Assembly (NCBI GenBank): GCA_021828285.1
Contig: JAKASG010000014.1
Location: 1 to 52,516, forward strand
DNA: 52,516 bases
Source of the DNA: Acidobacteriota bacterium
Lineage (GTDB): Bacteria; Acidobacteriota; Terriglobia; UBA7540
Direction of reading: 5' to 3'
The notes beneath the pieces were generated by a model. It was not told the DNA's origin, did not search any database, and worked only from the letters and a program-made list of their open reading frames with translations. Position numbers and translations under genes: made by a program. Positions 6,440 through 8,250 of this stretch are shown here, one piece after another. Every line of letters starts with the position of its first letter. Positions within the stretch are counted from its first letter, which is position 1.

Positions 6440-6757
6440 CTATACGCGCGGGGTTTCAAGGCCCAGGTATTGCTCGACGCTGATGCCGACCTTCTGCCGG
6501 AACCGGCCGGCGAGCGAAGGGATGGGGCCGCTCGGCTCATCGAGGGCGATTCGCTCGATTCGGTGCATGGGATAGAAAACCATTGCCATCGCCATCGCCA
6601 GCTCTTCCTGCGCGAGAATTTGCCGCACGAAATCGTCAAATAGTTCCACCGAGAGGCCGCGCAACGTCGCGCCCGCCGCGTTCAATCCCAATAATTGTCC
6701 CCAAATTTTCTCCTTCGGGCCGGTGAGGCTGACGATCACGATGGAATTGATCTCCAT
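6440..6757 (-). CDS. conserved hypothetical protein (105 aa)
   Basis: A 105-residue soluble protein beginning MEINSIVIVSLTGPKEKIWG. It ends in a helical part that contains FYPMHRIERIALDEPSG. The start at 6757 is preferred over the longer frame because a purine-rich AAAGGACGAG lies just before it and the upstream residues look like non-coding arginine-rich translation. It resembles a small protein I associate with Acidobacteriota genomes, but I cannot name the family. It sits between pgsA and the CMD gene, on the same strand as both. Confidence 0.65.
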   Translation of the reverse strand: MEINSIVIVSLTGPKEKIWGQLLGLNAAGATLRGLSVELFDDFVRQILAQEELAMAMAMVFYPMHRIERIALDEPSGPIPSLAGRFRQKVGISVEQYLGLETPRV

Positions 6758-6867: not shown

Positions 6868-7458
6868 TCACCGTTGAGCGGGCCGTTCCAACTCAGCCGG
6901 CGGGCGCTCTGGCAAGACGCAGAAGGCGCCTTCGGTGAAATTTTGCGACTCGATTCCCAGCGCATGATCGAACCGCGCGCGAAAATTCTCCCATGCGATC
7001 GCAGCCGCGAGTTCAACGATTTGCGCTTCATTGAAGTGTCGGCGCAATCGCTCGAAAAGCGCGTCGGAAATTTCGACCGGCGTAGCGGTCATGCGCTCGC
7101 CGAATTCGATCACCAATTTCTCGAGGTCGCTGAACGCCGCGCTTTCGCGATAATGCGGCAACTCACGGAGCTGTTCTTCGGTCAAACCGATTTTTCTGCC
7201 CACGGCAGAACCAATGTCCATTCAAAACGGGCAGCCGGCGAGCGTTGCAGCTTTCAGCCCCCCAAGCGCTTTCAGCCGCTCGTCAACTTTGTGGCTCTTC
7301 ATCAGCGCCATCTCGAAGGCCACATTCCCCGCGAATAACTTCCCGTGATGCGCGAGGATGGTCATCGGCTCCGGAACTTTCCCCAAAATCTTCTTTGTTT
7401 GCGAATACGCATATCGAATGAAAATCCCCGGCTTCTCGAACGCTTTGATTCTTGCCAT
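6868..7458 (-). CDS. carboxymuconolactone decarboxylase / AhpD-like protein, probable selenoprotein
   Basis: Read through one in-frame TGA (7224-7222), this is a 196-residue CMD/AhpD-fold protein, a normal length for the family. These all-helical proteins use a CxxC pair for thiol redox or peroxide chemistry. Here the pair reads LAGC76-P-F-[TGA79]-MDIG, so the stop replaces exactly the second cysteine. Both halves are intact and family-like: LGGLKAATLAGC before, and GRKIGLTEEQLRELPHY and IVELAAAIAWENFRARF after. A SECIS-like hairpin lies at 7210-7194. Start ATG 7458 has a GGAGGGG ribosome-binding site. Alternatives are a fresh nonsense mutation or a sequencing error, but the hairpin argues for selenocysteine. 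No sel genes are in the window. Confidence 0.8.
7194..7210 (-). promoter_or_regulatory. bacterial SECIS-like hairpin after the in-frame TGA
   Basis: The minus-strand RNA folds as UUCUGCC (7210-7204), loop GUG (7203-7201), GGCAGAA (7200-7194), a perfect 7-bp stem. The loop begins 18 bases after the UGA and its first base is G. Bacterial SECIS elements recognised by SelB have a short apical loop with an early G about 16-37 bases after the UGA, so stem, loop and distance all fit. Confidence 0.75.
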
Positions 7459-7596
7459 CAGTCCCCTCCGTCCTGAATGCTCGCCTATTGGATTCCTTGC
7501 CGCGCAAGCGGGTTACTCCGCTTATTGGCAATTAGACAGCGCGTTCCCTGCTTCCTCCGGGCATCGGCTGTCGAGGCCAAAGCCAACGAGTTTGAG

Positions 7597-8250
7597 CTAT
7601 AGACGATACACGCCGGCGCCCGAGGCCAATTCGGTCGGCGGCTCGGTGAGCCTTCGGACGTCGTCGAGGCTCACACCCGGGGCGAGTTCTTTCAGGACCA
7701 GGCCTTTGGGCGTCACCTCCATGTAAGCAAGCTCGGTGACAATCGAATGGACCACGCGCGTACCGGTGAGAGGAAGCGTGCACCGCTTCAAAATTTTTGG
7801 CCGGCCGTCGCGCGTGGTGTGTTCCATGGCGACGATGACGCGCTTCGCGCCGGCAACCAAATCCATGCTGCCTCCCATCCCTTTGACCATTTTCCCGGGA
7901 ATCATCCAACTGGCGAGGCTGCCTTGTTCGTCAACTTCCATCGCCCCCAAAACCGTGAGGTCAATGTGCCCGCCGCGGATCATGGCGAAGGATTCGGCGC
8001 TTGAAAAATACGCTGAGCCGGGAACTTCGCTGACGGTTTCTTTTCCCGCGTTGATGAGGTCAGGATCTTCTTCGCCCTCGAAAGGAAACGGGCCGGCGCC
8101 GAGCATTCCGTTTTCCGATTGCAAAACGACTTCGATGCCGGAGGGCATATAGTTCGAGACAAGCGTCGGAATTCCGATGCCGAGATTGACGTAATATCCA
8201 TCGCGCAACTCCTGCGCCACGCGCCGCGCAATGATTTCGCGTTTGTCCAT
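7597..8250 (-). CDS. scoB: 3-oxoacid CoA-transferase subunit B
   Basis: A 217-residue beta subunit of a succinyl-CoA:3-ketoacid (or acetate/acetoacetate) CoA-transferase. It moves CoA between acyl groups through a glutamyl-CoA thioester; the catalytic glutamate is E46 in the SENGMLG motif. Other family marks are LGIGIPTLV near the N-terminus and the [13 protein letters not shown] segment. It follows scoA by 67 bp on the same strand, and the two form the alpha2-beta2 enzyme used in ketone-body or acetoacetate use. The precise acyl substrate is not certain. Confidence 0.94.

Follow-up and report, generated by a model that had tools for sequence, protein, structure and literature searches.

A divergent AhpD/CMD-type gene of an Acidobacteriota bacterium whose internal TGA is very probably read as selenocysteine

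The locus and its reading frame

The window analysed here, that is, the whole stretch of 52,516 nucleotides of contig JAKASG010000014.1 from an Acidobacteriota bacterium (assembly GCA_021828285.1), carries on its minus strand a gene for a protein of 196 amino acids with an AhpD/CMD fold (6868..7458, read-through translation). The gene starts at an ATG (7458-7456), which follows a probable ribosome-binding site, GGAGGGG, recognised by inspection of the minus strand at 7463..7469, and ends at a TGA stop (6870-6868). When the sequence was re-read, the layout given in a first-pass annotation of this DNA was recovered, with 78 open codons, a TGA at 7224-7222 and 117 further codons, and the translation (MARIKAFEKPG...AGCPF-U-MDIGSAVGRK...PAQR) contains this one internal TGA. 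The codon (7222..7224, minus strand) is number 79 and occupies, as that annotation had claimed, the second position of a CxxC motif, C76-P-F-U79; the aligned residue in homologs is Sec or Cys, except in one distant clade with Thr/Ser.

Downstream lies a conserved hypothetical gene of 105 amino acids with no Pfam match (6440..6757, minus strand), which is also linked to the selenoprotein gene in two further genomes, G300 and G303 (tblastn, 63-66% identity), and its product is a possible functional partner of the selenoprotein. A neighbouring CDP-alcohol phosphatidyltransferase gene is kept in the same two genomes. Upstream, a gene for CoA-transferase subunit B (7597..8250, minus strand; PF01144) serves as context only; a CoA-transferase gene also lies upstream of the ortholog in G297, and at locus L070 the corresponding neighbour is 80% identical. 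We identified no reductant or operon partner of the selenoprotein.

Conservation of the TGA and of a hairpin behind it

Searches of the phylum and its relatives, together with four loci from a genome collection, gave 73 distinct homologs. Alignment at residue 79, which the first-pass annotation had proposed as a check, returned TGA in 55 of these and Cys in most of the remainder, with one distant Thr/Ser clade as the exception, and the homologs with TGA are spread over many families of the phylum. In a tree of 72 rows (55 Sec, 12 Cys and 5 Thr/Ser at codon 79) the window gene falls inside a clade of 18 rows with support of 100/100, all of them Sec in that sample. A class-wide profile search, in which this clade scored 177-275 bits and the next group at most 136 bits, added more members, and all the clade members examined (n=54) comprise 52 with TGA and two with TGC (L127 and L128). 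The generalisation from the 18 sequences, that the clade is entirely Sec and never carries the relay His of AhpD, was given up after the wider search, which returned the two Cys members and eight members with His. One TGA-bearing member of the clade (L009) comes from a MAG labelled Klebsiella pneumoniae, and this label looks doubtful for the gene.

The nearest orthologs belong to the same taxonomic family and are 56-59% identical to the window protein. Amino-acid identity to the three nearest is higher after the TGA (61-63%) than before it (50-51%), and third codon positions are the most variable in both halves of the gene in this comparison, a pattern incompatible with a second half that has decayed or does not code for protein.

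Behind the TGA the RNA is predicted to form the hairpin UUCUGCC-GUG-GGCAGAA (7194..7210, minus strand), with one side of the stem at 7210-7204, the GTG loop at 7203-7201 and the other side at 7200-7194. The hairpin claimed earlier, with a 7-bp stem and a loop that starts with G 18 nt after the UGA, was found as described, and it lies within the published limits for bacterial SECIS elements, namely a loop of 3-9 nt, a stem of 4-16 bp, a spacing of 16-37 nt from the UGA, a G as first or second loop base and an MFE of -7.5 or below (PMC13188914): the loop is the 3-nt GUG, the stem has 7 bp, the spacing is 18 nt and the 42 nt that follow the UGA fold with an MFE of -10.8. The use of this hairpin alone as proof of a selenoprotein was dropped, as 32 of the 1,600 TGA triplets of the window (2%) are followed by an equally good or better hairpin and its single-sequence folding z-score is -0.94. 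What decides the selenoprotein reading is instead the conservation of the TGA codon and of the place of the hairpin, and the covariation of its stem.

Assignment of the hairpin as a SECIS element rests, besides the published limits, on covariation in two groups of homologs. Within the window's clade the seven pairs are formed in 91% of cells and five of them show double-sided changes, which gives a covariation score of 0.42 compared with 0.195 in shuffles; none of 500 shuffles reached the observed value, and the score fell to at most 0.13 when the partner was shifted by 1-3 columns. The sister clades carry the loop 20 nt from the UGA rather than 18; here the pairs form in 98% of cells and the covariation score is 0.61 compared with 0.24 in shuffles, again unmatched by any of 500, in an alignment in which two outlying sequences are handled apart or misaligned. 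In the wider clade set at least five of the seven pairs are kept in 50 of 51 distinct sequences, and the first loop base is G in 48 of the 51. The two Cys members of the clade have an interrupted helix with four and five of the seven pairs, and the homologs without TGA are, as a group, far weaker, with a mean hairpin score of 6.9 compared with 18.1. Taken together, these sequence comparisons show the TGA, the hairpin and the downstream frame to be maintained by selection.

One Cys homolog (L081, G329:C306) has a TGT near aligned codon 79 together with a complete hairpin, GCCGCCTT-GGC-AAGGCGGT; its genome is 77% complete and has no SelA over the cut-off. This looks like a recent change from Sec to Cys with a leftover SECIS element.

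Selenocysteine machinery and competing readings of the codon

The window's genome (2.97 Mb, 93% complete, 119 contigs) encodes all four components of selenocysteine insertion, selA, selB, selC and selD, whose presence the first-pass annotation had named as a check, and each exceeds its curated cut-off: a tRNA-Sec with anticodon TCA scores 72.7 bits (gathering score 47), SelA 561.3 bits (cut-off 268), SelB 349.8 bits (242) and SelD 377.7 bits (125). The gene for SelD (L069, G000:C9:300-3500) has an in-frame TGA of its own in the context ...VKAAG-U-AAKLSP..., which makes SelD itself a probable selenoprotein. A second AhpD-like paralog on another contig (L050, G000:C84:27000-29600) has a TGA at the same CxxU codon (CKYULNSH) and the hairpin ACCGCCTT-GGC-AAGGCGGT.

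SelA was also found over the cut-off in all 28 tested genomes with a TGA member of the window's clade. Among the genomes with Cys forms it is absent from G171, G273 and G147, which are 99-100% complete, and present in G622, G461, G337, G332, G334 and G314. Cys members had been expected to come from genomes lacking Sec machinery, which proved true only in part: SelA presence tracks the codon imperfectly, and the two Cys members of the clade (L127 and L128) belong to near-complete 9.5 Mb genomes, G622 and G461, that combine SelA with the Cys form.

Three other readings of the internal TGA would have to account for these observations. It could be a nonsense mutation or an assembly error that turned the TGC or TGT of an ordinary Cys enzyme into TGA, for which the existence of homologs with TGC or TGT at codon 79 and the origin of the window in an assembly of 119 contigs can be adduced; the identical TGA of 55 distinct homologs from many families makes a base-call error implausible, however, and with coding constraint that persists past the codon and a hairpin that covaries, a broken gene is extremely improbable. 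Another reading is that the TGA ends a first polypeptide and that the ATG directly behind it in the window (7221-7219) starts a second by translational coupling, and the downstream frame (6868-7221) is indeed open from this ATG. In the homologs, though, the TGA is followed by ATC, ATT, GTG, CAG, ACC or other codons, so that there is no conserved start for a second polypeptide, and the break would split the predicted catalytic helix; we regard this arrangement, too, as hardly credible. A reassigned code, in which TGA is read as Trp, Gly or Cys, has nothing in its favour except the open frame and is the least probable of the three: the gene's own stop is a TGA, the genome has the complete Sec machinery, and homologs without TGA have Cys at position 79, or Thr/Ser in one distant clade, and never Trp or Gly.

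The comparative sequence evidence argues that the internal TGA of this AhpD/CMD-type redox gene is almost certainly read as selenocysteine and that the gene encodes a genuine bacterial selenoprotein. SelB would recognise the hairpin 18 nt downstream and bring Sec-tRNA-Sec, with which the ribosome would decode UGA-79 as selenocysteine. In this genome and dozens of related ones, automated gene callers unaware of Sec would break the gene in two or cut it short at the TGA, and reading through the codon recovers a common branch of selenoenzymes.

Fold, active site and relation to known selenoproteins

Membership of the CMD superfamily is indicated by a match to PF02627 (Pfam CMD; E 5.6e-9, 36.3 bits, gathering score 23), and the model of the peroxidase-related enzymes, TIGR01926, gives 40.2 bits, under its curated cut-off of 81.8. 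The AlphaFold model is all-helical with a mean pLDDT of 90.7 and a predicted catalytic helix at residues 77-89. Its best PDB matches are the AhpD-like peroxidase-related proteins 2prr, 3c1l and 6k40 (TM about 0.8), with the debrominase Bmp8 and an alkyl hydroperoxide reductase of D. radiodurans as near-best matches. Alignment and the predicted fold place Cys76-Pro-Phe-Sec79 at the start of a helix, where AhpD has its two catalytic cysteines. In the AhpD of Mycobacterium tuberculosis and in PA0269 of P. aeruginosa, the structure of which matches the model with a TM of about 0.9 by target length, CxxC stands at the corresponding place; the window protein differs in having Sec for the second Cys, and Ala64 and Gly83 in place of the relay Glu and His.

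The relay of AhpD and PA0269 consists of Glu, Cys, His/Tyr, Cys and His (PMC3141380). On the basis of the same paper, the classical arrangement was taken to combine Cys-x-x-Cys(Sec) with a His at +4 and a Glu at C-12, and of these the window protein has the CxxU alone. Across the clade (n=54) Cys76 and Cys/Sec79 are invariant, the residue at U+4 is Asn in 26, Gly in 20 and His in 8, and Glu at C-12 is not conserved (5 of 54). Glu157, on the last helix, is present in all 54 members, and the aligned residue in the sister clades inspected is mostly Phe. With the relay Glu and His missing, it is not certain that the window protein acts as a peroxidase in the textbook AhpD manner.

The product would be an all-helical thiol-redox protein of the AhpD-like/peroxidase-related family (COG2128, TIGR01926-like), in which the selenolate of Sec79 most likely attacks an oxidised substrate, for example a hydroperoxide. 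Cys76 would resolve Sec79 as a selenenylsulfide, which cellular thiols or a partner of the thioredoxin type may then reduce, and the lower pKa of the selenol may explain how the classical relay could be lost. This peroxidase or thiol-oxidoreductase chemistry is the one that we favour, with some reserve. Alternatively, the selenoprotein may have a job other than with peroxides, such as a selenol-based reductive dehalogenation by analogy with the Cys-dependent debrominase Bmp8, which is among the closest solved structures (sequence E 1e-5, fold TM 0.76); the window's branch has mostly lost the relay residues of AhpD, and deiodinases use selenocysteine for dehalogenation. However, a number of further AhpD-like peroxidase-related structures equal or exceed Bmp8 as matches, the likeness to Bmp8 is one of overall sequence and fold, and Pfam analysis of the neighbours recognised no halogen-metabolism gene adjoining the selenoprotein gene; we consider such a role outside peroxide reduction unlikely. 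A broader idea, that in this nearly purely Sec-dependent branch (52 TGA, 2 Cys), with its mostly lost His/Glu relay and its invariant Glu157, selenium may have let the active site be rebuilt for a non-classical chemistry, of which reductive dehalogenation would be one example, is speculative, if somewhat less so. This branch is a natural setting in which to examine the role of selenium in an AhpD-type active site that lacks the usual proton relay.

The first-pass annotation had called the gene a probable new selenoprotein, and while the conserved TGA, the hairpin and the machinery bear out the selenoprotein, listed families and NF053654 speak against its being new. Its remark that CMD/AhpD-like proteins are among known bacterial selenoproteins is borne out by the catalogues: a report of 2005 already described AhpD-like and CMD-like selenoproteins with CxxU (PMC1088965), and the same CxxU families recur in those of 2022 and 2026 (PMC9312934, PMC13188914). 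The window gene is a divergent addition to these already known CxxU AhpD-like selenoproteins and not a new kind of system. It shares with the AhpD-like selenoprotein TIGR01926/COG2128 (YciW) of the Sargasso Sea set the CMD/AhpD superfamily, Sec as second residue of CxxC and a bacterial SECIS element after the UGA, and it differs from that type in its motif, which is CxFUxD[I/A][N/G] in the window's clade and CxYUxxxH in the sister clades of our homolog set. The CMD-domain selenoprotein of PF02627 (PMC13188914), likened here by description only, is similar in exceeding the PF02627 cut-off and in its CxxU. The best NCBIfam match is NF053654, 'GroundWater_YciW' YciW-related (seleno)protein (E 8.1e-35, residues 13-174), yet the window protein, at 120.2 bits, falls well short of the curated cut-off, 310. 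Another member of the clade, L024 (CVFUQDINAA), reaches 256.8 bits, which indicates that NF053654 describes a sister branch.
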